From assembly GCF_021298855.1 (NCBI RefSeq), contig NZ_JAJTHI010000014.1, positions 1-53,480 of the forward strand: 53,480 bases of DNA. Direction: 5' to 3'. Under the pieces are notes generated by a model. That model ran no database searches. It had not been told where the DNA came from and saw nothing but the letters and a program-made list of their open reading frames with translations. The stretch's first letter is position 1. Every line of letters starts with the position of its first letter. The translations under genes were made by a program, and so were the position numbers. Positions 17,883 to 53,480 of the stretch are shown here, piece by piece. The DNA comes from Gemmatimonas sp. Lineage in GTDB: Bacteria > Gemmatimonadota > Gemmatimonadetes > Gemmatimonadales > Gemmatimonadaceae.

Positions 17883-17924
17883 CGTGGCCAGGGAGCGCGG
17901 TGCTCTCTGGCCACGCGCCGTTTT
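17883..17924 (+). terminator. Rho-independent terminator of the susCD pair
   Basis: A 14-bp stem, CGTGGCCAGGGAGC (17883-17896) with GCTCTCTGGCCACG (17102 bases further excluded; right arm 17902-17915), contains one G-T pair and a 5-nt loop. GCGCCGTTTT follows on the plus strand, 60 nt from the susD stop codon. Confidence 0.85.
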
Positions 17925-19021: not shown

Positions 19022-19080
19022 CCTCCTCGCCACGTCCTGTCATGCGTCCTTTCCCCGTTGGCTTCGGAAGCGCCCGCCGA

Positions 19081-21384
19081 ATGCAAGCCTCCCCTCGTCA
19101 TGCGTGGTGGTGCACCTGCACTCTGGTGGCGCTGTCCACCGGGCTGCTGGCGTCGCTGCCACATACGGCCATCGCGCAAACTGTGCCCACACCCATGGCG
19201 GGCCAGAGCATCGAGCCCTGGTTGGCCCCCCCCTCACCGCTCACGCTGGCCTCTGCGAAGCGTACCGACCGGCTCGCGTTCATGGTGTACGAGCGGGGGC
19301 AGCGCAACGTGTACACGGCCGCGGCGCCCGACTTCACGCCGCGCGCGCTCACGCGTTTCCTCGACGACGACGGCATCGATCTCACCGATGTGAAGATCTC
19401 CGACGACGGGCGCGTGGTGGTGTTCGTGCGTGGCACGGCGCCCAACCGCTGGGGGTGGGTCGCCAACCCCAACCACGATCCGGCTGGTGGTGATCGGGCC
19501 ATCTGGGCCGTCCTGACCGCCGGTGGCCCGGCATGGCGGGTAGCCACGGGCGCGTCCCCCGAGCTCTCACCGGACGGACGCTGGGTGCTGTTCACACGCG
19601 ACGGACAGATTCATCGCGCCCGGGTGTCGCGCGCGCGGCCGCTGGCGCCCTCGGACACGGGTGGCGCGCCACTCATTCGCCTGTGGGGGCGCAACGGGTC
19701 GCCGCGCTGGTCGCCCGACGGCAAGCGCATTGCCTTCGTGAGTGAACGCGAACACCACAGCTTCGTAACGGTATACGATGTCGCCTCGCGCACCGTGCAG
19801 TATGTGGCGCCGGGGGTGGACTGCGATGGCGCGCCGGTCTGGTCACCCGACGGGCGGTACCTCGCCTTCTCGCGCACACCGGGTACCCCCTTCGGCCTGC
19901 AGCGTCGCACGCCACCGGGCAATGCCAATCCCGCCGTGGGGTGCGGCACCGGCTTCGGCGCGCCGGCGTCCACGCCGGTCACCGAGGGGCAGGCGAATCT
20001 CGTGCGAGCACCCGGGTTCTTCACGTCCATGCTGCCGGGGGGATATCGTCTCGCGCTCATGGTCGCCGACGTGGGCGGGGCCAGGAACATCACGTCTCCC
20101 CTCGTGATGGCGCAGATTCCCGCGCGCGAAGTCTGGCACAACGCGGTGGGCGATTCGGTGTTCACGTCGCTGGCCAACATGACCTGGGCCGGCAACGCCA
20201 TTGCCTTTCCGGTGAACGTGCCCAAAGACGAGTGGGAGCGCTGGTACGCGGTGCCCGCCACGGGGGGCACGCCGGTACGCCTCACCACCACCGACGGGCT
20301 CATTGAAGACGCCACGAGCGTGGCCTGGTCGCGTGACGGCGGGCGCACCATGTACTACACCACCAATGCGGGGGACATCGAGCGCCGCCACATCTGGGCC
20401 GTTCCCAGCGATGGGGCATCGCCGCCGGTGCGCATCAGCAGCGGCGACGGCGTGGAAACCCACCCGCAACCGCTGGCGAGCGGCAGGCAGGTGGCGGTGC
20501 TGTACTTCGGCGCGCGTACGCCGGCCTCGGTGGCGCTGGTCCCCGCGAGTGGCGGGGCACCGCGCATCATCTACCCCACGCTGCCGCGCGACTTCCCCAC
20601 CAGCGCCCACGTGACGCCGGAGATCGTGAAGACCCGCGCCGAGGATGGCCTCGAAATCAGCAACCAGCTCTTCCTGCCGCGCGACCTCAAGCCGGGGGAA
20701 AAGCGGCCGGCCATCGTGTTCGTGCACGGTGGTCCGCGCCGGCAGATGCTGCCGGCGTACCATTACATGCAGTTCTATCACTGGTCCTACGCGGCCAACC
20801 AGTGGCTGGCCGATCAGGGGTACGTGGTGCTGTCCATCAACTACCGGCGCGGCGTGGGCTACGGCAAGAGCTTCCGCGATGCCCCCAACGCGCGTGACCG
20901 TGGCAACAGCGAGTACCTCGACGTGGTGGCGGGCGCCAAGTACCTGCAGCAGCGGCCCGATGTGGACGCGGCGCGCGTGGGCATCTGGGGGCTGTCGTAC
21001 GGCGGGCTGCTGGCCGCGCAGGCGCTGGCGCGCCACAGCGACATCTTCGTGGCCGGTGTGGACATGGCCGGCGTGCACCACTACGACTACGCGCTCGACA
21101 GCACCAGCTCCGGCTTCCGCTCGGCGGCCATCGGCGCCATCGACACGTGGAAGAGTCCGGTGTTCCTCGTGCACGGCGACGATGACCGCAACGTGGACTT
21201 CGCGCAAACCGTGGGGCTGGTGCAGCTCCTCCGTGCGCGCAACGTGTACCACGAACTCATGGTCGTGCCCGACGATCTGCACGAAAGCATGCTGCACGCC
21301 AACTGGATCGACACCTTCGACCGCATGGGCGTGTTCCTCAAGCGGTTCGTGTGGAATCGCGAGACGCCACCGGCGCTGCGCTGA
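19081..21384 (+). CDS. Secreted S9-family prolyl-oligopeptidase-type peptidase
   Basis: 767 aa from ATG 19081. A signal peptide of about 33 residues ends AIAQ. Residues 60-500 form a TolB/DPP4-like beta-propeller with repeated SPDG-type turns (ELSPDGRWVLF, WSPDGKRIAFVSE, WSPDGRYLAFSR). The C-terminal alpha/beta-hydrolase domain has the triad Ser639 (GLSYGG), Asp702 (DDRNVD) and His734 (DDLHES). Such enzymes cleave short peptides, often after proline, in the periplasm. The frame opens at a GTG (19018) that overlaps the lipoprotein gene by four nt; I prefer 19081 for signal-peptide geometry, with GGAAG 10 nt before it, but 19018 or 19042 are possible. Confidence 0.88.
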   Translation: MQASPRHAWWCTCTLVALSTGLLASLPHTAIAQTVPTPMAGQSIEPWLAPPSPLTLASAKRTDRLAFMVYERGQRNVYTAAAPDFTPRALTRFLDDDGIDLTDVKISDDGRVVVFVRGTAPNRWGWVANPNHDPAGGDRAIWAVLTAGGPAWRVATGASPELSPDGRWVLFTRDGQIHRARVSRARPLAPSDTGGAPLIRLWGRNGSPRWSPDGKRIAFVSEREHHSFVTVYDVASRTVQYVAPGVDCDGAPVWSPDGRYLAFSRTPGTPFGLQRRTPPGNANPAVGCGTGFGAPASTPVTEGQANLVRAPGFFTSMLPGGYRLALMVADVGGARNITSPLVMAQIPAREVWHNAVGDSVFTSLANMTWAGNAIAFPVNVPKDEWERWYAVPATGGTPVRLTTTDGLIEDATSVAWSRDGGRTMYYTTNAGDIERRHIWAVPSDGASPPVRISSGDGVETHPQPLASGRQVAVLYFGARTPASVALVPASGGAPRIIYPTLPRDFPTSAHVTPEIVKTRAEDGLEISNQLFLPRDLKPGEKRPAIVFVHGGPRRQMLPAYHYMQFYHWSYAANQWLADQGYVVLSINYRRGVGYGKSFRDAPNARDRGNSEYLDVVAGAKYLQQRPDVDAARVGIWGLSYGGLLAAQALARHSDIFVAGVDMAGVHHYDYALDSTSSGFRSAAIGAIDTWKSPVFLVHGDDDRNVDFAQTVGLVQLLRARNVYHELMVVPDDLHESMLHANWIDTFDRMGVFLKRFVWNRETPPALR

Positions 21385-21403
21385 CGGCGGGGAGCAGCTC
21401 GTC

Positions 21404-21482
21404 GGAGACGCGGAGATACGGAGCAGGGCACATCCGCTTTGCAGCGCGCTGCCACTCCGTGCCTCCGTACCTCCGTGCCTCC
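21404..21482. repeat. Purine-rich repeat in inverted orientation between convergent genes
   Basis: The left arm (21404-21423) is three copies of an 8-bp GGAGnyrC-type unit; the right arm (21463-21482) is its reverse complement with 17 of 20 positions matching, separated by 39 nt. The block fills most of the gap between the S9 gene and the gamma-glutamyltransferase gene, which point at each other. It probably folds in transcripts from either side and may end transcription both ways. Confidence 0.7.
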
Positions 21483-21501
21483 CACGATCAGTTCCTCTCG
21501 C

Positions 21502-24435
21502 CTAGCGCACCGCCCCCGCCGCGCCCGCCCGTCGCGGGTCGGCGCCGGCGGTCACGGTGCCGCGCCCCAGGCGAATGGCGGCGCCGTAGCCCTCGCGCAG
21601 CTCGCCGCGCGCCGACACGAAGGTGAGGTCGTAGCCCAGAGTGCGCAGGCGGTTCACCACCTGCGGCGCGAAGCCGTCTTCGAGTTGCAGGTTGAACGGC
21701 GGCGACGCGGCCGCCCCGCTGCCTGGAGGGGCGCCGCCTCCGCCGGGCAGGAAGCGTGGCAGCTCGAGGGCCGCCTGCGGACCAAGCCCGAAGTCCAGCG
21801 CGCCAATGAGTGACTGGTACACGGCGCTGGTGATCCACGCGTTGCCGGCCGCGCCCACGGCAAACACGGGGCGCGAACCCTCGAAGGCAATGGTTGGTGC
21901 GAGCGTGCTGCCGTGACGCGCGAAGGGCAGGCGTGATCCGTACTGGGTGGGGTCGGTGCCGTAACTCGTGAGCTTGTCATTGCTCAGGAAGCCCAGCCCC
22001 GGGGTCACGTAGAAGTTGCCGCCCCACGTCCCCAGCGTCTGCGTCACCGCCACGGCGTTCCCGTCGGCATCGGCCACCGTGTACGCAGTAGTGCCCGCGG
22101 CATGGCACACGGTCATTTCGCGCGCGTGCTCGTCGCCGCAGGGGCTGGCGTCATCGTGGGCGGCGGCGTCGGCGTACGCCGCATCGCCGGCGCCTTTCTC
22201 CCCTGCCGGCGGCGGCGCGGTCGGCCGATTGCGCAGGCACTCGAGGGTATCGCCGCGCACCAGGCGCGGGGTGAGCGCCCGATCGGCGTTGTAACACTGC
22301 CACCGCACCTTGGCCGTGTCCTTGTCCACGATGCTGGCCACGTCCACCGGCCACATGGCCGGATCGGCAATGCGATTGCGTGATGACGGCGTGAGGAACC
22401 ACGCGGAAAGCATCGCGTGCAGCGTGGCGGCATCGTCGGTGTACACCCGCGGCGACGGGAACTGCTCCAGCAGGTTGAGTCGCGCCACGAGGTCGGCCCC
22501 GCCGCTCACCGGCGGCGCCCCCGAGCACAACCGATAGCGACGGTACGTGCCGCACACCGGTTCGCGCTCGTTGGCGAAGTAGCGCGCCAGATCGCTCACC
22601 TTCATGGCGTTCCCCTTCGCGCGCAGATCCCCGGCGTACCTGGTGGCCACCTCGCCCTTGTAAAAGCCGTCTGCCCCCTTGGCGGCAATCTGTTCCAGCA
22701 CCCACGCCAGATCGGGGTTGCGAATGGTGTCGCCGCGCTGCAGCGGCTCACCGTTGCGGAAGAACAGCGCTCGGCTGCCCTCGTACTTGGCGAAGTGTTC
22801 GCGCTCGGTGGCCAGCGTGGTGGCCAGACCGTCACTCACCGCATAGCCGGTGCGGGCCGCGCGAATGGCCGGCTCCAGCAGCGCCGCCCACGGTACCTTG
22901 CGGCTGCCGTAGCGTTGCCACGCGAGATGCATCCCCGCCACCGTGCCCGGCACATTCACCAGCACCGGCCCGTCGCTCGGATACCGCCCGTTCACCAGCA
23001 ACGACGTATTCGACAGCCCCCCCTCTTCGGGCACGCGACTCATGAACTCGATGAGGGTGGGCTGCTTGCCCTTGAGCGCAATCACCATTTCGCCGTAGCC
23101 CCCAATGCCGCTGGCGTCGGGCTCCACCACGCCCAGCGCAAAGCTCACGGCCACGGCGGCGTCGATCACGTTGCCGCCGCGTCGGAACATCTCCAGCCCC
23201 GCCTCGGTCGCCACCGGGTGCGCGCTGGAGACGGCAGCGCGGCCGGAGGCGTCGGCGCGCAACGGGGGCCGCGCCGCCAGCAGCGCGTGAATGGCTGCGT
23301 CACGTGCGCTGTCGGTGGGCGCGGCGATGGCCTGCGGCCGGAAGCGGGCGCGAGCCTGCTGCCATGCGGCGCGCGAGGCGGCGGGCGCTTCCGCACCGAA
23401 GTAGAGCCGCGCACTGCGCTCCCACACCCGATCGAACGCCGCCGCGTTGGCGGCCGCACGATCGATGGCCACCGGTCCTGCCACCGCGATCTGTCCAACG
23501 TCCGGCGCCAACGGTGCCGGCAGCCGGATCATGCGCGGGGCGGCAAGCCCCTGCTGCTGCACGGTCCGCTCGTGCGCACTGCGATCCACCCCGCGATCGG
23601 GGTCGCCATTGTAGCCAACGGTCACGTCACGCACTTCGGCGATCGTCACCAGGATGCCGTCCGGTGACCAGTCGAGCTCCCCGTGACGACGTGACAGCAG
23701 GTTGGTGTAGCTGGTGCCGCTGGCGGGCACGATCACCACGCCGGTGCGGGTGGAGACTGCCACGCGCTGCCCGTCGGGCGACAGCGCCATGTCTTCAATA
23801 CCGGCGTCGCTGAACACCACGCGGTCGTTCACGATCACGCTGCGGGTGGTCTCGGTGAACACGATGTACGCCGCCACCGAGCCGTCGGCGCTCAGGCGCG
23901 GCCGCTTCTCCGTCTGCTCCCGCTTGCTGAGCCGGCGCTCGGTGGTACTGCCGGCGTCGATCGTCCAGATGCGCGACTCGTTACCGAGGCCGCGCTGAAA
24001 GAGCAGGCGCCCGCCGGCCGCCACCGGCGACACGTCATGCGCCGTGCTGGTCGTGACACGCCGCGTGGCGCCCGTCAGCTGTCGCCCATCGGGGGCAACG
24101 GTGCGGGCGAGAATGTCGTACTGGCCCAGCGAATCACTGGCCCAGTACAGCGTATCGTGCTGCCACGTGGGGTCACGATGATAGGCGCTGCCGCCGGTGA
24201 GGCGTGTGGCCGGCTCGCCCGCCCGCTGCGCGTACAGTTGACCGTCACGCTGGAACACCAGCACCCCGGCGAGCGATGCCGCTGGACGACGGGCTTCCAC
24301 GACCAGCGAATCGGCGGTTGGGGGCTGCTGGCGCGCCGGAGGAACGCCCTGCGCCTCCGCCAACGAGGCCGCAGCGGCGCACAGCGTCAGCATGAACGGG
24401 GCAGCGGCCTGCACTCCACCGGGGAAGCGCCGCAT
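21502..24435 (-). CDS. Secreted beta-propeller / gamma-glutamyltransferase fusion
   Basis: 977 aa. A signal peptide (about 1-28) is followed by a TolB-like beta-propeller (about 50-330; for example MALSPDGQRVAVST, ELDWSPDGILVTI). From about 395 the chain is a complete gamma-glutamyltransferase: AVSSAHPVATEAGLEMFRRG, GGNVIDAAVAVSFALGVVEP, GIGGYGEMVI, FMSRVPEE, and the autocleavage site with Thr782 in GTTAYTVADADGNAV. The family splits itself before that Thr and transfers or hydrolyses gamma-glutamyl groups from glutathione or peptides. A normal enzyme is about 580 aa; the extra 380 N-terminal residues are the propeller. The ATG at 24435 overlaps the stop of the upstream cyclophilin gene by one base; a GTG at 24438 is the alternative. 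Confidence 0.88.
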   Translation of the reverse strand: MRRFPGGVQAAAPFMLTLCAAAASLAEAQGVPPARQQPPTADSLVVEARRPAASLAGVLVFQRDGQLYAQRAGEPATRLTGGSAYHRDPTWQHDTLYWASDSLGQYDILARTVAPDGRQLTGATRRVTTSTAHDVSPVAAGGRLLFQRGLGNESRIWTIDAGSTTERRLSKREQTEKRPRLSADGSVAAYIVFTETTRSVIVNDRVVFSDAGIEDMALSPDGQRVAVSTRTGVVIVPASGTSYTNLLSRRHGELDWSPDGILVTIAEVRDVTVGYNGDPDRGVDRSAHERTVQQQGLAAPRMIRLPAPLAPDVGQIAVAGPVAIDRAAANAAAFDRVWERSARLYFGAEAPAASRAAWQQARARFRPQAIAAPTDSARDAAIHALLAARPPLRADASGRAAVSSAHPVATEAGLEMFRRGGNVIDAAVAVSFALGVVEPDASGIGGYGEMVIALKGKQPTLIEFMSRVPEEGGLSNTSLLVNGRYPSDGPVLVNVPGTVAGMHLAWQRYGSRKVPWAALLEPAIRAARTGYAVSDGLATTLATEREHFAKYEGSRALFFRNGEPLQRGDTIRNPDLAWVLEQIAAKGADGFYKGEVATRYAGDLRAKGNAMKVSDLARYFANEREPVCGTYRRYRLCSGAPPVSGGADLVARLNLLEQFPSPRVYTDDAATLHAMLSAWFLTPSSRNRIADPAMWPVDVASIVDKDTAKVRWQCYNADRALTPRLVRGDTLECLRNRPTAPPPAGEKGAGDAAYADAAAHDDASPCGDEHAREMTVCHAAGTTAYTVADADGNAVAVTQTLGTWGGNFYVTPGLGFLSNDKLTSYGTDPTQYGSRLPFARHGSTLAPTIAFEGSRPVFAVGAAGNAWITSAVYQSLIGALDFGLGPQAALELPRFLPGGGGAPPGSGAAASPPFNLQLEDGFAPQVVNRLRTLGYDLTFVSARGELREGYGAAIRLGRGTVTAGADPRRAGAAGAVR

Positions 24436-26381
24436 CACGACGCCCCGCGCGTGAAGGGACGTGCGGGGAGCGCCGTACGCACGATTCGCACCGACTCGAT
24501 CACGTCGCCTTCCTGGATGCGGTCCATCACATCGAGCCCCTGCAGAATGGCCGCGAACACGGTGTAGTCGAAATCGAGGCGCACGTTGTCGATGAGGTTG
24601 AAGTAGATCTGCCCGTCGCCCGTATCGCGCCCGCGCGTGGAGATACCCAGCGTGCCGCGCCGGTTGCTGGCGCCCACCTCGTCACGCATGAAGTACGACG
24701 TGGCCGGATCGTATTCGTCGGCCCCGGGGCTGCCCCCCTGCACCACGAAGTTGGGCACTACCCGGTGCAGCGTGCGCCCCGCAAAGTCGCCCCGTGCGGC
24801 CAGGCGCACGAAAGACACGACCGCCATGGGGGCACTGTCGGGCAGCAGGGCGAGGGTCATGCGCCCCTTGCCCCGAATGGTGAGCTCCACGGTCGCGCCG
24901 TGCAGCGCGCGCAGCTCCGCCTCGCCCACGAACGGCGGTGGCACGTACGGATCGGCGGTTGCACTCCAACCGGGCAGTGCCTCCGCCGCCAGACGCTGGA
25001 TCTCCGGATCAGCATCGCGCACCCACTGCCCGAGCCACAGGCCACTCACCGGCGGGTGCACGTCGCGGAAGCGCACGAGGTAGCGCAACAGCGCCACACG
25101 CGGATCGCGCCAGGTCACCGGCTGCGCACGGCTGATGCGTTCGAAGGCGCGCGCTGCGGCATCGGCGTGCCGCGTGTCCAGGGTCCCGCCGTCGGCCGCC
25201 TTACTCAGGAAGCTGGCGCCGGCCAGCACGAGACCGGCATGATCGCGGCCAAGTGCACGGACCGCGTCGTCCGCCGTCACGATCGCTTCGAGTTGCACGT
25301 TGGGGTTCGGGTCGCGGGCGAGGAGCCGCAGCGTGGCACTGTCACGCGCCACCATCGCCGCGCGCGCCGCCCACGCCCGCGCCTGCCACACCGGGTCGCG
25401 CGACAGGCGGGCGAGGTGGCCCCGCGCGCTGTCGGCGTTCACCCGCACCAGCGCCGCCACGGCGTGGGCGCGCGTACGCCAGTCGCGCTGTGGCTGCAGC
25501 AGCGGGCGCAGCAGCGCCAGCGCATCGTCGGCGCGGCTCAGGCGATCGATGGCCATGAGGCGCACATGCTCGTTGGTATCACGCAACGCGGTGGTCAGCT
25601 GCGCCGTGGTGAGCGGCACCGAAGGGCGCAGCATTTCCATGCGCACCAGTGGCGACGGATCACGCAGGGCGTCGGCAGTGGGTTGGACGAGCACGGCGAC
25701 GCGGCGCACCTGCGGGTCCGGGTCGGCGCGCAGCGCCGCCAGCCAGGCGGCCGACGGGGTCGAGCCGGCGGGGCTGGCCAGCAGGGCCGCGTGGCGGGCC
25801 AGCGCGATGAGGAGTGACAGCGCACCGTCTGCCTCACCGCGTGGCTCCTGCAGCCGCTCCAGCATGCTCGTGACCGAGTCGGCGGGAGCCAGGGCGCGGC
25901 GATGCCGGCGATAGAACACCTCGAGTCCGCGGGCAGCACCACGACGTACGACGATCGCGTCGTCGCGCAGTCCGGCGGCAATACGGGCCTCCCATTCAGC
26001 CGTCGCCGGCACTGACCGCCCCATCGTGGCGTAGGCGGCGGCGCGCACGGTGGCATCCGGTTCCTGGCGTGAGGCCGACAGCACACTCCAGCCAACCCCC
26101 GGCACCCGCATCTGCGCGCTCGCCAGCAGCACCTCGCGACGTACCGACGCGGCCGGCGACTGCAGCAGCGGCATGAGCTCCCCCATCAGTGCCTCGCGCT
26201 CCATGCGCCCCACGGCACGCACCGCCAATCGCTGGACGATGGTATCCCCCCGCTGCAGCGCGGCGCGCAACGTGGACAGGTCGGCCCCGCGTGTGTGTTC
26301 GGCGCGCAGTACCTCGTACGCGGTGGGGGAAGGCGGCGCCGCCGTGGCACCCTGAAGCAGCAGGAAGGCGAATGACCACAT
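24435..26381 (-). CDS. HEAT-repeat protein with C-terminal cyclophilin peptidyl-prolyl isomerase
   Basis: 648 aa. Residues 1-16 are a short hydrophobic leader (MWSFAFLLLQGATAA), probably a signal peptide. About 30-450 is a run of HEAT-like helical pairs, with phrases such as DPDPQVRRVAVL, DTNEHVRLMAIDRLS and DADPEIQRLAAEALPGW. About 485-640 is a cyclophilin domain: TLHRVVPNFVVQGGSP, GTLGISTRGRDTGDGQIYFN, VFAAILQGLDVMDRI. It should catalyse proline isomerisation on periplasmic proteins, with the HEAT part as a docking scaffold. The frame opens at 26534, but the upstream part overlaps the divergent M28 promoter region and lacks a signal peptide, so I start at 26381. It is the first gene of a two-gene unit with the gamma-glutamyltransferase. 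Confidence 0.85.
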   Translation of the reverse strand: MWSFAFLLLQGATAAPPSPTAYEVLRAEHTRGADLSTLRAALQRGDTIVQRLAVRAVGRMEREALMGELMPLLQSPAASVRREVLLASAQMRVPGVGWSVLSASRQEPDATVRAAAYATMGRSVPATAEWEARIAAGLRDDAIVVRRGAARGLEVFYRRHRRALAPADSVTSMLERLQEPRGEADGALSLLIALARHAALLASPAGSTPSAAWLAALRADPDPQVRRVAVLVQPTADALRDPSPLVRMEMLRPSVPLTTAQLTTALRDTNEHVRLMAIDRLSRADDALALLRPLLQPQRDWRTRAHAVAALVRVNADSARGHLARLSRDPVWQARAWAARAAMVARDSATLRLLARDPNPNVQLEAIVTADDAVRALGRDHAGLVLAGASFLSKAADGGTLDTRHADAAARAFERISRAQPVTWRDPRVALLRYLVRFRDVHPPVSGLWLGQWVRDADPEIQRLAAEALPGWSATADPYVPPPFVGEAELRALHGATVELTIRGKGRMTLALLPDSAPMAVVSFVRLAARGDFAGRTLHRVVPNFVVQGGSPGADEYDPATSYFMRDEVGASNRRGTLGISTRGRDTGDGQIYFNLIDNVRLDFDYTVFAAILQGLDVMDRIQEGDVIESVRIVRTALPARPFTRGAS

Positions 26382-26479
26382 GGGAGTATCCGGGAAGAAA
26401 GAAATGCCTGCGCCAATATGCCCGGCGCGCCGACCGCGCGGTACTTTCCGGAACTGCCCCGATCCCTCCGGAGACTCCC

Positions 26480-28288
26480 ATGTCATTCCCCCGACTTTCA
26501 CGCATTGCGCTCGGTGCGTGCCTGCTCCCCGCATTCGCCGCGACCGCCTCGTCGCAGGGCGCGTCGCGGGTCAATCGCTTCGGCAATCCCGAGAAGCTCA
26601 AGCCAGCGCCCACCACGGCACAGATCACGCCGCGCGATCTGCAGATTCGCCTCTACCAGTTTGCCGACGATTCCATGATGGGGCGTCAGGTGGGGCGGGT
26701 GGGCAATCGCAAGGGCACCGACTTCATCGCCGCCGAACTCAAGCGACTCGGCCTCGTACCGGGCGGCGTGAACGGGACGTACTTCCAGAATCTGCCGTTC
26801 CATCTGCGCAAGTTCACGGAACACTCGCGCGTGACGGTCGACGGCAATCCGATGGCGTGGAACACCCATGTGGTGGCGGTGCCGGGGCTGCGGGCACCGC
26901 GCCCGGTGAACGATGCCGAGGTCGTGTTCGGTGGCACGCAGGGCGATACGACGTTGCAGATCCCCGCCAGCGCGGCGGTGGGCAAGTTCGTCGTGCTGCT
27001 GCCGCAGCCCGGCGGGCGTGGCGGGCAGGGGCAGGGGTTCGCGGTGCGACCGGGGTTCACGCCGCCCCCCTCCCGCTTCGCCGACGCGGCGGCGGTGGCC
27101 ATCGTCGATCTCGACAACCTCTCCCCCGCGCAGCGCGTGGCCATCAACGAGCCCACCGTCGCGCAGCAGGTTGCCCCGCCGCGTGGAGCCGCGCCGGCCG
27201 GTGCCGGCGCCGTCTCACCGGCGGATTCGCTCGCGCTGCTCCGGCGCGAGCTCTCGGCGGCGCAACCGCAGGGCACCTTCCGGCTCACCCGCGAGGGAGC
27301 GGCGCAACTGTTCAAGGGGCAGCCCGTCGAAGCGCTCGCCCCCGGTGCGCGCGGGGGCGTGGTCACGGCGTCACTCGACTTCGTGGAGTTGCCCACCGAC
27401 TGGGCGCGCAATGTCATCGGGATCATCCCCGGCAGCGATCCTGTACTCAAGGCGCAGTATGTCGCCATTGGCGCCCACAACGATCACGTGGGCTTCACCA
27501 CACCGGTCGACAAGGACTCCCTCAAGGCGTTCAACGATGCGCGCAATCGTCTGCTGCTCGCCAATGACATGAAGCCGCTGGGCCCCGAGCAGATGGCGCA
27601 GATCCGCGTGAACATGGACAGCATCCGCCGGGTGCATCCCACCCCTCGACTCGACTCCATCAACAACGGGGCCGACGACGACGGCTCGGGCTCCATGGGC
27701 GTGCTCGAGATTGCCGAAGCGGTCATGGCCATGGCCGTGAAGCCCAAGCGCTCCCTGATCTTCGTGTGGCACACCGGTGAGGAAGCCGGGCTGCTGGGCG
27801 CGGCGCACTTCACGCGCCACCCCACCGTGCCCATCGATTCCATCGTGGCCCAGCTCAACATCGACATGATCGGCCGTGGGCGCGCCGAGGACCTGCCGGG
27901 TGGCAGCGACGACTATGTGGCCGTTATCGGCTCGATGTTCGACTCGAAGGATCTGGGCGAGACCGTGGCGCGCGTGAACACCAGGCAGCCCCGGCCGCTC
28001 GCCCTCGATTACAAGATGGACGAGCCCATCGCCTGGGCCGGGTACAACAACATCTACGCGCGCAGCGATCACTTCCGCTACGCGCAGCAGGGCGTGCCCA
28101 TCGCCTTCTTCTTCACGGGGCTGCATGGGGACTACCACCAGCGCACCGACGAGCCGGAGTGGATCGACTACCCGCACTACGCGCGCATCACGAACTACAT
28201 TCGCGACATCGCCGTGGACGTGGCCAACGGTCCGCGCCCGCGCCTGAACGGCACGAAGCCCGCCAAGCCCAAGGTCATCGTGCCGTAG
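26480..28288 (+). CDS. Secreted M28-family zinc aminopeptidase with PA-like insert
   Basis: 602 aa. Signal peptide 1-25 ends ASSQ. Metal-site motifs are in order: GAHNDHVGF, NNGADDDGSGSMGVLEIAEA, HTGEEAGLLG, NIDMIGRG and GDYHQRTDE. Between about 130 and 320 is a region with a protease-associated (PA) domain feel and a proline- and alanine-rich linker. M28 enzymes remove N-terminal amino acids using two zinc ions. The ATG at 26480 has GGAG eight nt upstream; the frame continues to 26189 but that part runs across the divergent gene. It is convergent with the second S9 gene and ends at a large hairpin. Confidence 0.9.
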   Translation: MSFPRLSRIALGACLLPAFAATASSQGASRVNRFGNPEKLKPAPTTAQITPRDLQIRLYQFADDSMMGRQVGRVGNRKGTDFIAAELKRLGLVPGGVNGTYFQNLPFHLRKFTEHSRVTVDGNPMAWNTHVVAVPGLRAPRPVNDAEVVFGGTQGDTTLQIPASAAVGKFVVLLPQPGGRGGQGQGFAVRPGFTPPPSRFADAAAVAIVDLDNLSPAQRVAINEPTVAQQVAPPRGAAPAGAGAVSPADSLALLRRELSAAQPQGTFRLTREGAAQLFKGQPVEALAPGARGGVVTASLDFVELPTDWARNVIGIIPGSDPVLKAQYVAIGAHNDHVGFTTPVDKDSLKAFNDARNRLLLANDMKPLGPEQMAQIRVNMDSIRRVHPTPRLDSINNGADDDGSGSMGVLEIAEAVMAMAVKPKRSLIFVWHTGEEAGLLGAAHFTRHPTVPIDSIVAQLNIDMIGRGRAEDLPGGSDDYVAVIGSMFDSKDLGETVARVNTRQPRPLALDYKMDEPIAWAGYNNIYARSDHFRYAQQGVPIAFFFTGLHGDYHQRTDEPEWIDYPHYARITNYIRDIAVDVANGPRPRLNGTKPAKPKVIVP

Positions 28289-28306
28289 GGACACAACAGC
28301 ACGGAA

Positions 28307-28376
28307 GCAGGGGGCAGAAGACAGGGGGCAGGAAGCAGAACCGTCTGCTCCCTGCCCCCTGCTTACTGCCCCCTGC
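28307..28376. repeat. Large inverted repeat of GGGGGCAG units between convergent genes
   Basis: Left arm 28307-28339 and right arm 28344-28376 are 33 nt each, match at 29 positions and leave a 4-nt loop. Each arm is itself a direct repeat of a CAGGGGGCAG word. The structure begins 19 nt after the M28 stop and ends 27 nt before the S9 stop, so it can serve both genes as a terminator or RNA 3-prime end protector. CCACCTG is repeated just after it. Confidence 0.9.
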
Positions 28377-28403
28377 CACCTGCCACCTGCTCGCTTCGGC
28401 TCG

Positions 28404-31064
28404 CTACATCGCCTTCGGCGCCTTCGGCTGGTTGGCGTTCTTCACGTACTTGTCCAGCCACGCCACCCAGCGGGCCCACTGGTCGAGCACCGTCTCGCGC
28501 GCGATCGGGCCGTGGTCCTCGTACGGGTACATGTACAGCGACGTCGTCTTGCCGAGGCCCATGAGCGCGTGATACATGCGCACCGAGTTGATGGGGTCGG
28601 TGCCCACGTTCTGGTCCTCGGTGCTGTGGTACATGAGCAGCGCGCCGTTCAGCTGGTCGGCGTACAGGAAGGGTGACATCTCCAGGTACGTCTGCCGTCC
28701 CTGCCACAGGTCGCGCCGCTCGCTCTGGAAGCCGTTCGGGGTGAGCGTGCGGTTGTACGCGCCATCGCCGGCAATGCCGGCCTTGAAGAACGGCGTGTGC
28801 ACCATGGCATTCACGGTGCTGAACGCCCCGTAGCTGTGTCCGCCGAGGCCAAGGCGATGGCGGTCGATGATGGCGAGGGTGTCGAGCGCGTCGATGATGG
28901 CCGATAGATTATTGCGCAGATCCACGACGTAGTTGTCGTTCGGCAGTTGCCCTTCGCTGGCGAAGATGGGGGCGTCGGGTTCCACCACGGCGTACCCCTG
29001 TGTGACCAGGAAGGCGAGCGAGCGCGGCCCGTAGGTGGGAAAGCGGCGCTCGCGCGCGGCGTTCTGCGACGCGGCGCGGTCGTAGCCGGCCTGATTCTCG
29101 TACTCGTACGGATAGAACCAGAACATCGCCGGCAGGCGCGTGCCCTCCTTGTAGCCGGCCGGCAGCGTGACCTTCACGTTGAACTGGAAGCCATCGGCAC
29201 GGCGGGCGATCACCGTCTTCTTCACCGCCGCCGACAGCTCCGGCATAAGATCCACGTTGCTCGTGAGCGGCTTCGCGTCCTTGCTGGCCAGCGTCAGCAC
29301 GTACGACTGCGGTACCATGCTGGCGCTCTCGCGCTGAATCACGGCCTTGGAGAAGTCGTCATCGAGTGGCGCCGAGATGGTCTCCACGAGGCTCGCCTCG
29401 CTTTCGTACAGGCGCGCGATGCTGCCCGTCTTGATCTCGATCTTCTCCACCCACGTGTTCTGCACCGTGGCGCTGTCGGCGGCCGAGCCGATGCGGAAGA
29501 CGAACTTGCCATCGGTGGACACCACCACCACCGGTGCCCCCTTCCTGCCGGGGCGGGTGACGAGACCGTCGGCGTTGCGGCCGCCGAAGCCGCCACGCAC
29601 CTGCGTGGTGTCGGCGCCGCGCCGCGGCGTGACCACCGTGTACTTGGTGTTGTTCTCGGTGAGGAACACCGCCTGCTCGAACGTGCCCCCCGTGCCCTGT
29701 TCGGTCACGAAGAGAATGGTGCCGGCGTCATTGAAGCGCGTGGCCGTGATGCGGTTGGCGGTTTCGTAGAGCACCGCGGCGCTCGTCGAGTCGAACGGGG
29801 CCTTCCAATGCATGAGGCGGTCGTTGCGGCGCCCTGTCGCCGCGCTGTCGCCGCGGGCGGCCGGGGCACCGGCGGGCGCGTTGCCGGCGGCGCCGTTGCG
29901 ACGCGCCGCCACGGGCGCCACCTGCAGGTAGAGCAGCCCCGGCGCATTGGGGTGCCACTTGAGGTCGCGCTTGCTGGTGTCCACGGCCGTGCGGCCACGC
30001 GTCGCGGCATCACCAGGCTCCTCGCCGGTCCGCATGGCGCGCTTCGCCACTTCGCGCACCACCGCGCCGGTGGCATCGAGGACCACGTCACGCGTGCCGA
30101 ACTCGTTCACCTGCAGCACGTACGAGAAGGGCTTCTCCACGTACGTGACCTTGAAGTACTGCGCATCGGGGGAGGCGTCGATCCCGCGGATGTAGCCGGG
30201 CGCGCCGATCTTTCGCACCGCGCGGGTCTTCGTGTTCACCACGGCCAGCTGGCCGTTCATGTGATAGGCCAGCAGCTCCTTTTCGTACGGCGTCATGACG
30301 AGGTCGGCGTACGTGCGCGTCTTGAGCTTGGCGCCCTCGTTCACGCGGACCATGGGCCCGCTCGCGAGGACCGGCTCCTTGGGTTCGGGGCCGCGGCCGT
30401 CGGGCACGAGCACCGTGATCAGCGACTGGCCGTCGGCCGTCCATTCGGGCGCCGTGACCGCCGTCGCGAGCACCGTGCGCGGCGACGCGGCGCGCGCCTT
30501 GCCGGTGGCAGCATCAGCCACCCACAGCTGCGTCGCGTCGTCGTACAGGGCGAAGAAGGCAATCTCCTTGCCATCGGGCGACCACGTGGGTGCGGCCACG
30601 CGCGCGCCCGCGGGAGCGTTCACCGTGACCTTGCGGCCGGTGCTCCACTCGGTGACCTCGAAGCCCACGCTGCTGCGCATGGTGAGCGCCCGTTCGCGGT
30701 TGGCGAGGTGGTCCACCTGGAATCCGCCCAGGTTGTGGTGCGCCTTCCCCACGTACTTGAGCTGCGGTAGGCCGTCACTGAGCGGCCGCATGAAATACTG
30801 ACGGGCGCCGGGACTCGGGTTCGTGAAGCTCACGTTCCGGTCGCGAGGCGTCGTGACGAGCCTGGTGATCGCCTCGGGGGGCGTCACGTAGCCTTCGTCG
30901 GCGATCAGCTCGCCCTTGGCACCCGTGGCGCTTGCGGCGGGGCCGGCACTGTTGGTGGCGCCGCCGGTGTTCTGCGCGGCCAGCGGCCGGACGGCCGCAA
31001 ACGGGAGCGCCAGCAGGCCCGAGAGGGCGAGCAGGCGCAGGGACTCGATGGAGGGCTTCGGCAC
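28404..31064 (-). CDS. Secreted S9-family (S9C-like) peptidase
   Basis: 886 aa from the GTG at 31064, which has GAGG nine nt upstream and puts a signal peptide (ends PLAAQ, about residue 29) at the N-terminus. Residues 80-600 are a beta-propeller; a disordered alanine/glycine-rich insert is at about 395-425. The catalytic domain has Ser744 (GGHSYGAFS), Asp817 (STEDQNVG) and His851 (YEDHGP). This resembles plant-type glutamyl endopeptidases of the S9 group. The open frame runs to 32150 with no homology, so the longer start is rejected. It is divergent from the 162-aa gene; TTGGCG and TAAGCT about 20 nt apart at 31122-31093 on the minus strand are possible promoter boxes. Confidence 0.88.
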   Translation of the reverse strand: MPKPSIESLRLLALSGLLALPFAAVRPLAAQNTGGATNSAGPAASATGAKGELIADEGYVTPPEAITRLVTTPRDRNVSFTNPSPGARQYFMRPLSDGLPQLKYVGKAHHNLGGFQVDHLANRERALTMRSSVGFEVTEWSTGRKVTVNAPAGARVAAPTWSPDGKEIAFFALYDDATQLWVADAATGKARAASPRTVLATAVTAPEWTADGQSLITVLVPDGRGPEPKEPVLASGPMVRVNEGAKLKTRTYADLVMTPYEKELLAYHMNGQLAVVNTKTRAVRKIGAPGYIRGIDASPDAQYFKVTYVEKPFSYVLQVNEFGTRDVVLDATGAVVREVAKRAMRTGEEPGDAATRGRTAVDTSKRDLKWHPNAPGLLYLQVAPVAARRNGAAGNAPAGAPAARGDSAATGRRNDRLMHWKAPFDSTSAAVLYETANRITATRFNDAGTILFVTEQGTGGTFEQAVFLTENNTKYTVVTPRRGADTTQVRGGFGGRNADGLVTRPGRKGAPVVVVSTDGKFVFRIGSAADSATVQNTWVEKIEIKTGSIARLYESEASLVETISAPLDDDFSKAVIQRESASMVPQSYVLTLASKDAKPLTSNVDLMPELSAAVKKTVIARRADGFQFNVKVTLPAGYKEGTRLPAMFWFYPYEYENQAGYDRAASQNAARERRFPTYGPRSLAFLVTQGYAVVEPDAPIFASEGQLPNDNYVVDLRNNLSAIIDALDTLAIIDRHRLGLGGHSYGAFSTVNAMVHTPFFKAGIAGDGAYNRTLTPNGFQSERRDLWQGRQTYLEMSPFLYADQLNGALLMYHSTEDQNVGTDPINSVRMYHALMGLGKTTSLYMYPYEDHGPIARETVLDQWARWVAWLDKYVKNANQPKAPKAM

Positions 31065-31163
31065 GGCGTACGGCCTCGAAACGGAGGGGGACGGGGTGGG
31101 GCTGCCCACATAGCTTACAGCACTGTCCCGCGCTTGTCGCCAATTCCTGCAGGAGCATGTCGC

Positions 31164-31652
31164 ATGACCCAACCGGCCGGCACCCCGGAACCCGGCGCCT
31201 CCCCCGCCATCGGCGCCACCACCGAGAGTAACGGGGCACTTCCCGTGGAGACACCGCCCGCCTCCCCGGCGCTCAGGGAGCGGCTGGAGGTGGCGCGCAC
31301 CCTGCTGCTCAAGGTGCACCGTGCCCTGCTGGAAGCCGAACGGGTACGCTACGAGAAGGCACGCGGACGGATCGCCAACAACAGCGCCTTCCTCCAGTTG
31401 GTCATCAACGACCCGTGGTTCGACTGGCTGCGCCCCATGGCCCAGATGGTCCTGCTCATCGACGAGCGGGCCTCCGACCGGAAATCGCCACTGGGCGAAG
31501 AGGAGGGGCAGGCACTGCTCGACCGCGCCCGGGGACTGCTGCGGGCCGATCCGGAGGGGGACGCCTTCCAGCGACTCTACGCCGAAGCGCTGCAGCACTC
31601 CCCCAGCCTGGCCGTGCTGGCAAGGCAGGTTTCCACGCTGCTGGCCGGGTAG
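31164..31652 (+). CDS. Conserved-looking hypothetical protein (FLQLVINDPWFDWLRP type)
   Basis: 162 aa, soluble, no signal peptide. After a disordered proline-rich N-terminus (1-38) comes a helical domain: LLKVHRALLEAERVRYEKARG, then NNSAFLQLVINDPWFDWLRPMAQ and LLIDERA. I have seen the INDP-F-WLRPL pattern in many unnamed bacterial proteins but know no function. AGGAG eight nt before the ATG at 31164 makes the start clear. It is divergent from the S9 peptidase and not clearly tied to its neighbours. Confidence 0.7.
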   Translation: MTQPAGTPEPGASPAIGATTESNGALPVETPPASPALRERLEVARTLLLKVHRALLEAERVRYEKARGRIANNSAFLQLVINDPWFDWLRPMAQMVLLIDERASDRKSPLGEEEGQALLDRARGLLRADPEGDAFQRLYAEALQHSPSLAVLARQVSTLLAG

Positions 31653-31780
31653 CCGCCCGCCGCCAACAGCCATAATTCGCGCCCCGAACCCGGCACCCGA
31701 AGCTGATGAGGTACGGCCAGCGGGTTTGAGTGGCGGGTATTGGGTGCACCCGTTCCGGGGGCTCCGATTTCGGGGACGGG

Positions 31781-31813
31781 ACGGACCGGTGGTCTGGACC
31801 TTGGCCGGTCCGT
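31781..31813. promoter_or_regulatory. Inverted repeat before the S41 peptidase gene
   Basis: ACGGACCGG (31781-31789) pairs with CCGGTCCGT (31805-31813), perfect over 9 bp with a 15-nt spacer; with one bulged base the pairing extends by GGG/CCC. It ends 17 nt before the start codon. It could be an operator or a hairpin in the leader. Confidence 0.45.
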
Positions 31814-31829
31814 GCCCCATGCTACAGGT

Positions 31830-33017
31830 ATGCACCGCGCAGGGCACTCCCTGGCTGCGGGCGTGCTCGCGCTGCTGGCGACCGCGACCGTGGCAACCTC
31901 CTGCGTGCGCCCGCCGGCACCGTCCCCGCCTGGTCCGGCCCCGCACGTCGCGCCGCAGGGCGCCCCGTACGTCGCGCAGTTCGATTCGCTCTGGTCGCGC
32001 TTCGAGGCCGTGTATCCCTCGTTCGCGTACAAGCAGATCGACTGGCGCGCGCAGCGGGCGCGTTTCCGGCCACGTGCCGAACGCGCGCGCTCCCAGGATG
32101 AATTGGTCGCGGTGCTGCTGGCCATGCTCGCACCGCTGCGCGACCTGCACATCTGGCTCGTGGATCCGCGCGGGCAGGTGGTGCCGTCGTACAAGCCGTC
32201 ACGCGTGGTGAACTTCGACCAGCGACGCTGGACGCAGGCGCTGCGCGACGCCAACTACCTCGTGCGCGCCCCGGCGGTGGGTGATGGCATGGTGGGAGGC
32301 TATGCCTACTTTCATATCGGCACCTGGAAGGCGCCGCTCGACGATGACCTGCTGGAGAGCATGCTGCAGCGTGCGCGTGATGCGCAGGGACTCATCATCG
32401 ACGTGCGCACCAATGCGGGCGGCAGCGATGCGCTGGCGCTCGCCTTTGCCGGCCGATTCACGCGCAAAGCGTTTGCCGCGTCGTACGTGAGCATCAACAC
32501 CGACCCCCGTGTCACCGGGGTGGAGATGCCCCTCGCGCGCACCATTGCCCCCAAGGGCGGATGGCAATTCACGCGGCCCGTCGTGGTGATCAGCGGCCGC
32601 GGGGGATTCAGCGCCACCGAGAGCTTCGTGGCGGCCATGCGCACGCTGCCGCAGGTCACGGTCATTGGCGACACGACTGGCGGTGCCTCGGGCAACCCGG
32701 CCACGTACGCGCTGGGGAACGGCTGGCAGCACACCGTGCCGCGCTGGCTCGAGTACGGCCCGGACCGGCAACCCATCGAGTGGCGCGGCGTGGCCCCGCA
32801 TCTCGTCATTGCCTGGAACCCGTCCCACTACGACAGCACGCGCGACCCGCTCATCGATGCGGCCGTGGGACTCCTCGGCGAGCGCACCGGAGTCTACCGC
32901 ATTGCCCCGGCCCTTGGCGAACCGGCCACCGCGCGACAGCTGGAGGGGAACATCGACCGGCCGTCCGACGCGCGCGATCGCGTCCCGCCGCGCGACACGT
33001 TCGCGCCGCCACGCTGA
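31830..33017 (+). CDS. S41-family peptidase, probable lipoprotein
   Basis: 395 aa. The N-terminus has a signal sequence ending VATSC, giving lipid-modified Cys25. The helical N-domain of tail-specific peptidase relatives spans about 45-105 (SLWSRFEAVYPSFAYKQIDW). The catalytic S41 domain follows: GLIIDVRTNAGGSDALALAFAGRF (positions about 190-213), then the serine in GGFSATESF and VIGDTTGGASGNP. No PDZ domain is obvious. No Lys of the CtpA Ser/Lys dyad is seen at the usual place, as in several S41 branches that use a different base. The start is weakly supported: no clear Shine-Dalgarno. It lies 45 nt before the oxidoreductase gene. Confidence 0.8.
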   Translation: MHRAGHSLAAGVLALLATATVATSCVRPPAPSPPGPAPHVAPQGAPYVAQFDSLWSRFEAVYPSFAYKQIDWRAQRARFRPRAERARSQDELVAVLLAMLAPLRDLHIWLVDPRGQVVPSYKPSRVVNFDQRRWTQALRDANYLVRAPAVGDGMVGGYAYFHIGTWKAPLDDDLLESMLQRARDAQGLIIDVRTNAGGSDALALAFAGRFTRKAFAASYVSINTDPRVTGVEMPLARTIAPKGGWQFTRPVVVISGRGGFSATESFVAAMRTLPQVTVIGDTTGGASGNPATYALGNGWQHTVPRWLEYGPDRQPIEWRGVAPHLVIAWNPSHYDSTRDPLIDAAVGLLGERTGVYRIAPALGEPATARQLEGNIDRPSDARDRVPPRDTFAPPR

Positions 33018-38900: not shown

Positions 38901-38922
38901 CCGGGGGGCGGCCGCCCCCCGG
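38901..38922. terminator. Perfect 22-bp GC palindrome after the permease-M1 gene
   Basis: CCGGGGGGCGG is followed directly by its reverse complement, giving a perfect palindrome 15 nt after the stop codon. It would make a very stable hairpin, but no T-tract follows, so it may be a pause, a 3-prime end block or a protein-binding site. Confidence 0.5.
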
Positions 38923-41240: not shown

Positions 41241-41273
41241 GCGGCCCGTGCATCCCCGGGGGGCACGGGCCGC
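41241..41273 (+). terminator. Strong hairpin after the hydrolase gene
   Basis: GCGGCCCGTGC (41241-41251) and GCACGGGCCGC (41263-41273) form a perfect 11-bp stem with an 11-nt loop, 25 nt past the stop. There is no T-tract. Confidence 0.6.
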
Positions 41274-53195: not shown

Positions 53196-53270
53196 TGCAG
53201 GTGGTTCAACCGCGGACGGCTTTACTGCAGACGGTTCAACCGCAGACGTTTCAATCGCAGACGGCAGACG
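53196..53270. repeat. 15-bp tandem repeat, five copies
   Basis: Consecutive 15-nt units begin at 53196, 53211, 53226, 53241 and 53256 with consensus YGCAGACGGTTCAAC; the last unit and the next 30 nt slide into repeats of CAGACGG. The repeat starts 31 nt after the Gfo/Idh/MocA stop, and nothing suggests that it is translated. Together with the hairpin at 53312 it fills the gap before the convergent gene. Confidence 0.85.
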
Positions 53271-53311
53271 GCAGGAACCACAGTGCGCAGACGGCAGGGA
53301 TGCGGAAGGGG

Positions 53312-53339
53312 CGGGCGCGACCGCTGTGCGGCGCGCCCG
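53312..53339. terminator. Bidirectional hairpin between convergent genes
   Basis: CGGGCGCG (53312-53319) pairs with CGCGCCCG (53332-53339), and inside it CCGC pairs with GCGG around a TGT loop, with one bulged A, for 12 bp in all. ATTTCC follows on the plus strand and CCCCTTCC on the minus strand. It lies 24 nt past the minus-strand stop. Confidence 0.6.
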
Positions 53340-53362
53340 ATTTCCGTTGGTGGTGCGCGCGG

Positions 53363-53480
53363 CTATGGCTTCCCGCGCTGGCGCAGATGGTGCGCGCGGA
53401 GGGCGTGCAGCATGCGGCGGATCTGGCTTACCTCGTCGAGCGTGGCGTTCACCTGCGGCAACCCCGGCACCAGTCGGCGC
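53363..53480 (-). CDS. C-terminal end of a minus-strand gene cut by the window edge
   Basis: Reading the minus strand from 53479 gives 38 codons to a TAG at 53363-53365. The peptide has the look of a real coding end: LPQVNATLDEVSQIRRML then a basic tail ending RQRGKP. It is helical and basic; nothing more can be said about the protein. The hairpin and repeats just beyond its stop support a gene end here. Confidence 0.55.
   Translation of the reverse strand, partial: RRLVPGLPQVNATLDEVSQIRRMLHALRAHHLRQRGKP

Follow-up and report, generated by a model that had tools for sequence, protein, structure and literature searches.

The locus

The stretch examined here (the window: all 53,480 nucleotides of contig NZ_JAJTHI010000014.1, assembly GCF_021298855.1) is contig C15 of G000, a draft genome of the genus Gemmatimonas (4.09 Mb in 91 contigs, 68% GC), and it carries two large palindromes built from short repeat words, here called block 1 and block 2. 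Both lie between convergent genes, as an earlier note made from the sequence alone had described: the gap at 21385-21501 is bordered by a plus-strand gene ending at 21384 and a minus-strand gene ending at 21502, and the gap at 28289-28403 by genes ending at 28288 (plus) and 28404 (minus). The word types named in that note, a CACGGAG type with a period of 8 in block 1 and a GGGGGCA type with a period of 7 in block 2, were right as well, and so was the geometry of block 2, whose 33-nt arms pair at 29 of 33 positions (88%) around a 4-nt loop. The features are as follows; the families are described below.

19042-21384, plus: S9 family peptidase gene, converging on block 1 (Pfam Peptidase_S9, 6.1e-31)
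21391-21495, no strand: block 1, family C repeat-word hairpin (inverted repeat score 15.5; fold z -4.3 on both strands; other copies)
21397-21407, plus: conserved family C terminus, left side, GCTCGTCGGAG (matches the end in other family C copies)
21407-21423, plus: left word array, CACGGAG type, period 8 (pattern match C15:21398-21423)
21455-21479, minus: right word array, CTCCGTGC three times (sequence)
21479-21489, minus: conserved family C terminus, right side, CTCCCACGATC, a degenerate inverse of the one on the left (sequence compared with other copies)
21502-24438, minus: gamma-glutamyltranspeptidase (GGT) gene, converging on block 1 (Pfam G_glu_transpept, 1.8e-103)
26189-28288, plus: M28 peptidase gene, start uncertain, converging on block 2 (Pfam Peptidase_M28, 9.3e-35)
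28307-28339, plus: left arm of block 2, GGGGGCA and GGAAGCA words, period 7 (33-nt arms, 88% complementary)
28344-28376, minus: right arm of block 2, TGCCCCC words (inverted-repeat search)
28377-28391, minus: extra right-arm words, CACCTGC twice, beyond the best-paired part (sequence; alternative pairing)
28404-32150, minus: S9-type peptidase gene, converging on block 2 (Pfam Peptidase_S9, 7.2e-19)
53257-53345, plus: family A element, left part only, with GGCAGAC words and the first GC palindrome (CAGACGGCAGGAACCACAG at 53265-53283)

Block 1 takes up nearly all of its 117-nt gap and stands 6 nt from each stop codon. As RNA it is predicted to fold with -59.1/-64.7 kcal/mol (z -4.3 on both strands), and block 2 with -71.7/-81.1 kcal/mol (z -8.4 and -7.9 on the two strands); none of 200 dinucleotide shuffles did as well in either case. 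The window gave no match to any known RNA family in Rfam.

Repeat words and dispersed families

Both blocks are members of a broader class of palindromes whose arms consist of tandem, degenerate words of 7 to 8 nt, and several sequence-unrelated families of this class coexist in the genome. The self-match of long-arm hairpins is 0.458 at a lag of 7 nt and 0.403 at a lag of 14, against 0.288 and 0.296 for other intergenic DNA, and the best period was 7 in 17 of the 47 long hairpins and 8 in 5 of them (0.2 and 0.1 for shuffled arms). The vocabularies include GGCAGAC, GGGGGCA/GGGAGCA, CACGGAG (8 nt), GGGTTTC, TTGAGGG and ACTACAA, among others.

Four dispersed families, A to D, were recognized in the genome, presence being called from exact or near-exact motifs. 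Family A, with about 30 elements of about 150 to 250 nt, has outer word arms and two inner GC palindromes, and families B and C gave 14 to 16 motif matches. Family B ends in the terminal inverted repeats TGACAAGGGAGG and CCTCCCTTGTCA, frequently with GC palindromes outside these ends; family C ends in GCTCGTCGGAG and CTCCGACGAGC, with 8-nt words between them. Judged by its sequence and its terminal inverted repeats, block 1 is a copy of dispersed family C, further copies of which include C17:9007-9123, C20:34823, C20:113188, C45:7383 and C58:10212. The words of block 2 are those frequent in family B, whose ends it lacks.

Family A copies also occur at or near contig ends (C19:115, C45:78, C74:115, C46:54506 and C36:8331 of G000), which suggests that the draft assembly breaks at such repeats and that copy numbers may be undercounted. 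At the end of the window (53215-53480), behind a plus-strand gene, tandem GCAGACGGTTCAACC-like units precede a family A element of which the left part is present; the right part that would normally be expected is absent between 53345 and the contig end.

Hairpins and gap types

The inverted-repeat scan called for in the earlier note was run on 1.79 Mb (44%) of the genome, with genes from a custom codon-model caller; gene starts are uncertain in these calls, and the borders of convergent gaps are certain. Each gap of 30 to 400 nt was represented by its highest-scoring inverted repeat without gaps (+1 per match, -1.5 per mismatch, loop of at most 40 nt), and a score of at least 12 was called strong. 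Strong inverted repeats were found in 43 of 98 convergent, 47 of 343 co-directional and 4 of 127 divergent gaps. The odds ratio of convergent over divergent gaps is 24 (P = 1.7e-14), and the trend is kept in every gap-length class. In 400 kb of G015, a relative with about 91% DNA identity to our genome, the counts were 10/22, 9/84 and 0/25, respectively (P = 1.2e-4). Chance inverted repeats in GC-rich intergenic DNA, where a GC content of 68% makes short stems easy, are ruled out for all practical purposes: no dinucleotide shuffle of the 568 gaps reached a score of 12, and the fold z scores of the blocks run from -4.3 to -8.4.

The co-directional hairpins lie a median of 30 nt past the upstream stop codon, and 35 of the 47 are nearer to that stop than to the start that follows. 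In short, the hairpins sit behind genes, and a convergent gap has two ends of that kind. Hairpins track gene 3' ends, and convergent gaps are not their exclusive place; three of the four exceptions in divergent gaps are large word hairpins. The proposed class of convergent-end hairpins thus stands as an enrichment, in our genome and in G015, and the frequencies do differ between gap types, but the claim that such hairpins occur only between convergent genes fails on the co-directional and divergent counts given above. Within the window, the two giant hairpins do occupy two of the three convergent gaps, but there is also the third, partial element at the window end, and there are shorter hairpins in co-directional gaps. 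The latter are strong palindromes at 17883-17915, 38901-38922 and 41241-41273, possibly ordinary terminators.

Turnover at orthologous gaps

Family A motifs number 53 in our genome, 17 in G015, 3 in G003 (which includes DCZC01000003.1, Gemmatimonas sp. UBA2094) and 1 in G028; 26 further Gemmatimonas genomes have none. The same four genomes are also the only ones with families B and C. Words of the type GCGTAAGGTGAA occur 13, 10 and 5 times in G001, G022 and G004, and not at all in our genome. A search for GGGGGCAG..CTGCCCCC across 60 genomes returned chiefly unrelated short stems, and a loop-limited GTAAGGTGAA hairpin pattern matched nothing because the real loops are longer; the bare GTAAGGTGAA word did match.

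Comparison with relatives revealed orthologous gaps in which the hairpin is absent, is made of other words or has one arm expanded. At the site of block 1, 15 of the 18 genomes that retain the S9/GGT gene pair have a gap of 0 to 33 nt and no strong hairpin, G003 with a 32-nt half-element relic being one of them. G015 has a 99-nt hairpin made of other words (ACTCACA/GTCGTGAGT), and G021 (L348) has an unrelated, hairpin-free 91-nt tandem array of 16-mer CGTCTTCCCGCCGTAC units. At the site of block 2, GGGGGCA-type words are common to our genome, G015 and G003, the G003 orthologue being a perfect hairpin flanked by AAAACG and CGTTTT. G001, G022 and G004 have GTAAGGTGAA hairpins with scores of 33 to 58, a strong hairpin is missing from G005 and G012, and an extra gene occupies the site in other genomes. 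In the G015 orthologue of block 2, one arm consists of about 12 GGAAGCA units and the other is still TGCCCCC-like. This fits slippage without preserved pairing and supports the suggestion that the repeats are subject to slippage. The two blocks, which had been grouped as one class, differ in kind: block 1 comes from a dispersed family with terminal inverted repeats, and block 2 is a hairpin that lacks them and is shared vertically among relatives.

Between our genome and G015 the median gap identity is 59% for convergent, 82% for divergent and 88% for co-directional gaps in a small sample with similar flank identity, and the 5 convergent gaps with a hairpin in this sample have one in both species. 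Separately, at C58:22409 our genome has a short array of four GGACGCA words where G015 is about 150 nt longer, with a long hairpin and GGTGGCA words between flanks that are 97% identical; this difference is a recent gain or loss.

Could the hairpins have grown purely in place, from small terminator hairpins enlarged by slippage and strand switching with no dispersal? The word period of 7, the one-arm expansion in G015, the position of block 2 common to our genome, G015 and G003, and the unrelated 16-mer array at the block 1 site of G021 all agree with such growth. However, within families A, B and C, copies at many loci have their ends and long stretches outside the repeats in common, which growth in place cannot give; for these families the idea is already contradicted, and as a general account we think it distinctly improbable.

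A broader proposal is that a general mutational process, 7-nt slippage together with arm-to-arm copying, keeps making new hairpins behind genes, with vocabularies specific to each lineage and, at a fixed convergent gap, only a folded form that persists while the words are swapped. We hold this only tentatively and think it rather unlikely. If true, a form conserved without its sequence would be a widespread and overlooked 3'-end element in several phyla.

Because one gap can hold different words in species that are about 90% identical, searches for conserved sequence would miss this frequent type of bacterial 3'-end hairpin.

Termination and 3' ends

The earlier note suggested that the blocks stop both transcripts or protect both 3' ends. 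Both blocks have the GC-rich stem-loop of an intrinsic terminator, but no T-run follows block 1 or block 2 on either strand. At least four T in 8 nt were counted in 11.7% of the tails of long-arm hairpins and in 22.3% of those of short-arm hairpins; random 8-mers reach this number in 3.4% of cases. A role of the blocks in termination or 3'-end protection is plausible and remains putative. A required terminator is at odds with the S9/GGT gaps that lack a hairpin in 15 of 18 genomes and with the 88% of long-arm tails that have fewer than four T in 8.

The stronger form of this idea holds that the hairpins are dedicated bidirectional terminators or 3'-end protectors of convergent genes, in which selection holds the structure and the sequence drifts. 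It draws on the strong convergent enrichment in our genome and G015, on the hairpins present in both species at all five shared convergent gaps despite a median identity of only 59%, on the perfect hairpin of G003 and on the agreement of arms within copies (see below). Convergent-gap enrichment by itself is no proof of terminator function, however. Besides the hairpin-free S9/GGT pairs and the missing U-tracts, many copies are co-directional, and copies of one family share their sequence, so that the sites were not each built by selection. We therefore regard dedicated terminators as unlikely. Escherichia coli repetitive extragenic palindromic (REP) hairpins stabilize RNA 3' ends without terminating transcription (summarized in PMC13289151), and by analogy a mild RNA-stabilizing role, together with tolerance behind genes, appears most likely for the Gemmatimonas hairpins.

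Transposases

Families A, B and C, and through family C also block 1, are intergenic palindromes dispersed in many copies, as are REPs and REP doublets forming hairpins (REPINs). Families B and C have the terminal inverted repeats of miniature inverted-repeat transposable elements (MITEs), which block 2 lacks. The elements might be REPIN-like, or miniature elements with terminal inverted repeats, moved by an IS200-like tyrosine transposase of the REP-associated (RAYT) or TIRYT type. The sole Y1_Tnp (IS200-like) gene of our genome (L301, G000:C30:74525-74860, minus strand) is flanked on both sides by the inverted 12-mer word arrays GGGGTCAGGGCT and AGCTCTGACCCC, in which GGGGTCAG agrees with the published TIRYT-end motif GGGGWSAS (PMC3733652), and G015, G008, G017 and others likewise have RAYT-like genes with GGGGTCAG words. 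A cognate RAYT is expected to lie between copies of the same repeats, but these flanking words are not those of family A, B or C. Moreover, G028, a single near-complete contig, has copies of A, B and C and no Y1_Tnp match; G001, G004 and G022 likewise carry word hairpins with no Y1_Tnp match; and a search of the 1.79 Mb surveyed in our genome for longer elements in which family B ends enclose a gene (within 4 kb) found none. Movement by such an enzyme seems quite unlikely to us.

Origin and upkeep of the hairpins

Arms of one element resemble each other more than arms of different elements do: complementarity within versus between copies is 0.90 versus 0.81 in family A (P = 0.0002) and 0.82 versus 0.72 in family B (P = 0.003), with arms delimited by hand and some copies omitted. 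At one objectively defined position of family A the arms agree in 14 of 18 elements, with 7.5 expected (P = 0.0014), and three types of letter occur there. This agreement fits arm-to-arm copying or selection for pairing, between which the data do not separate, and subfamily structure could contribute.

We consider it probable that the hairpins are REP/MITE-like repeat-word palindromes that gather behind genes and are reshaped by slippage, and that they are not conserved bidirectional terminators. This reading builds on the observed multicopy dispersal, 3'-end bias, restriction to a few close relatives, absence or word replacement at orthologous gaps, growth of one arm by 7-nt units, and arm agreement in families A and B. 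We hypothesize that new copies arrive by REP/MITE-like transposition or copying and that the number of words shifts through replication slippage. Strand switching templated by the hairpin, or selection for pairing, would keep the arms alike. Placement would follow from tolerance behind genes and, by analogy with REP, from a mild benefit of a hairpin at the RNA 3' end, such as pausing, Rho-dependent ends or shielding from 3' exonucleases.

Several points weigh against dispersed elements of this kind. No mobilizing enzyme was tied to the families, and target-site duplications were not demonstrated because the gaps are rearranged. The comparison of arms gave no within-copy signal for family C (n = 5, P = 0.27), and at the pair that agrees in our genome four two-armed family A elements of G015 show mismatches. 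Block 2, which has no conserved ends, may have grown in place instead of arriving as a dispersed element, and the five shared convergent hairpins fit selection for form equally well. Birth, symmetry upkeep and replacement of palindromic repeats become testable with these elements, as does the effect of U-tract-free convergent-end hairpins on termination or RNA stability in Gemmatimonadota.

Known systems and other phyla

One close likeness is to the inverted heptamers of Xanthomonas (GGGAATC) and Nostoc (GGGGA(C/T)T), which are intergenic, near stop codons and scarce between divergent genes; in Xanthomonas each genome has about 70 inverted pairs with the potential to fold into stem-loops (Rehm et al. 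2015, PMC4692102). The Gemmatimonas hairpins share the 7-nt tandem unit (8 nt in block 1), the inverted pairs, the intergenic position near stop codons and the avoidance of divergent gaps. However, Xanthomonas and Nostoc use one word per genome, whereas Gemmatimonas has several unrelated vocabularies, conserved ends in some elements, word replacement at fixed gaps and a strong convergent enrichment.

REPs, bacterial interspersed mosaic elements (BIMEs) and REPINs, tagged by GTAG or CGTC, lie chiefly between convergent or co-directional genes near 3' ends (Di Nocera et al. 2013, PMC3733652). They, too, are dispersed intergenic palindromes near 3' ends with several families per genome, but REPs are 20 to 40 nt long, end in a conserved tetranucleotide and contain no words in tandem, and the Gemmatimonas elements measure about 100 to 250 nt and have word-repeat arms. 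CGTC falls within the family C end GCTCGTCGGAG and is not terminal to a short palindrome, and by inspection no GTAG was noted in A or B. TIRtrons and TIRYT repeats (PMC3733652) are matched by the Y1_Tnp gene, which lies between inverted repeats bearing GGGGTCAG, but no link was found between this gene and hairpin families A to D. The triplex-forming BoxC/PIT (TMECO) elements had no terminator activity in earlier tests cited in PMC4666352; they are likewise conserved, hairpin-like intergenic repeats in unstable regions, but a near-identical motif in E. coli takes the place of word arrays. The TAACTGA heptamers of Beggiatoaceae and cyanobacteria (PMC4679880) also form intergenic arrays, but mostly direct ones upstream of start codons, whereas the Gemmatimonas words form hairpins behind genes. 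We found no treatment of such Gemmatimonas repeats in the open-license literature. Already known, then, are REPs between convergent genes and the inverted heptamers of Xanthomonas; new are the many word families per genome and the replacement of words at fixed gaps.

In a cross-genome scan, the matches listed were mostly ordinary short stems, and those with word-like arms included some from other Gemmatimonadota (L177, L218, L234, L239 and L242), Nostoc and Deltaproteobacteria. The matches listed across phyla fell in 21 convergent, 28 co-directional and 5 divergent gaps, compared with 102, 235 and 100 among all gaps of the same stretches, figures that depend on crude picking of open reading frames and a pattern that favors terminators. 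In other phyla, the matches listed included inverted arrays of word-like units, for example CAGTTGTCAG/CTGACAACTG and GCACCCTGCACCCTG; the stretches with such arrays are L179, L194, L247 and L257 (Candidatus Thiosymbion and similar), L181, L217 and L261 (Deltaproteobacteria and similar), and L193 and L237 (Nostoc). A minor observation is a cobalamin riboswitch at L068:19505-19704 on the minus strand (Rfam RF00174, 115 bits).

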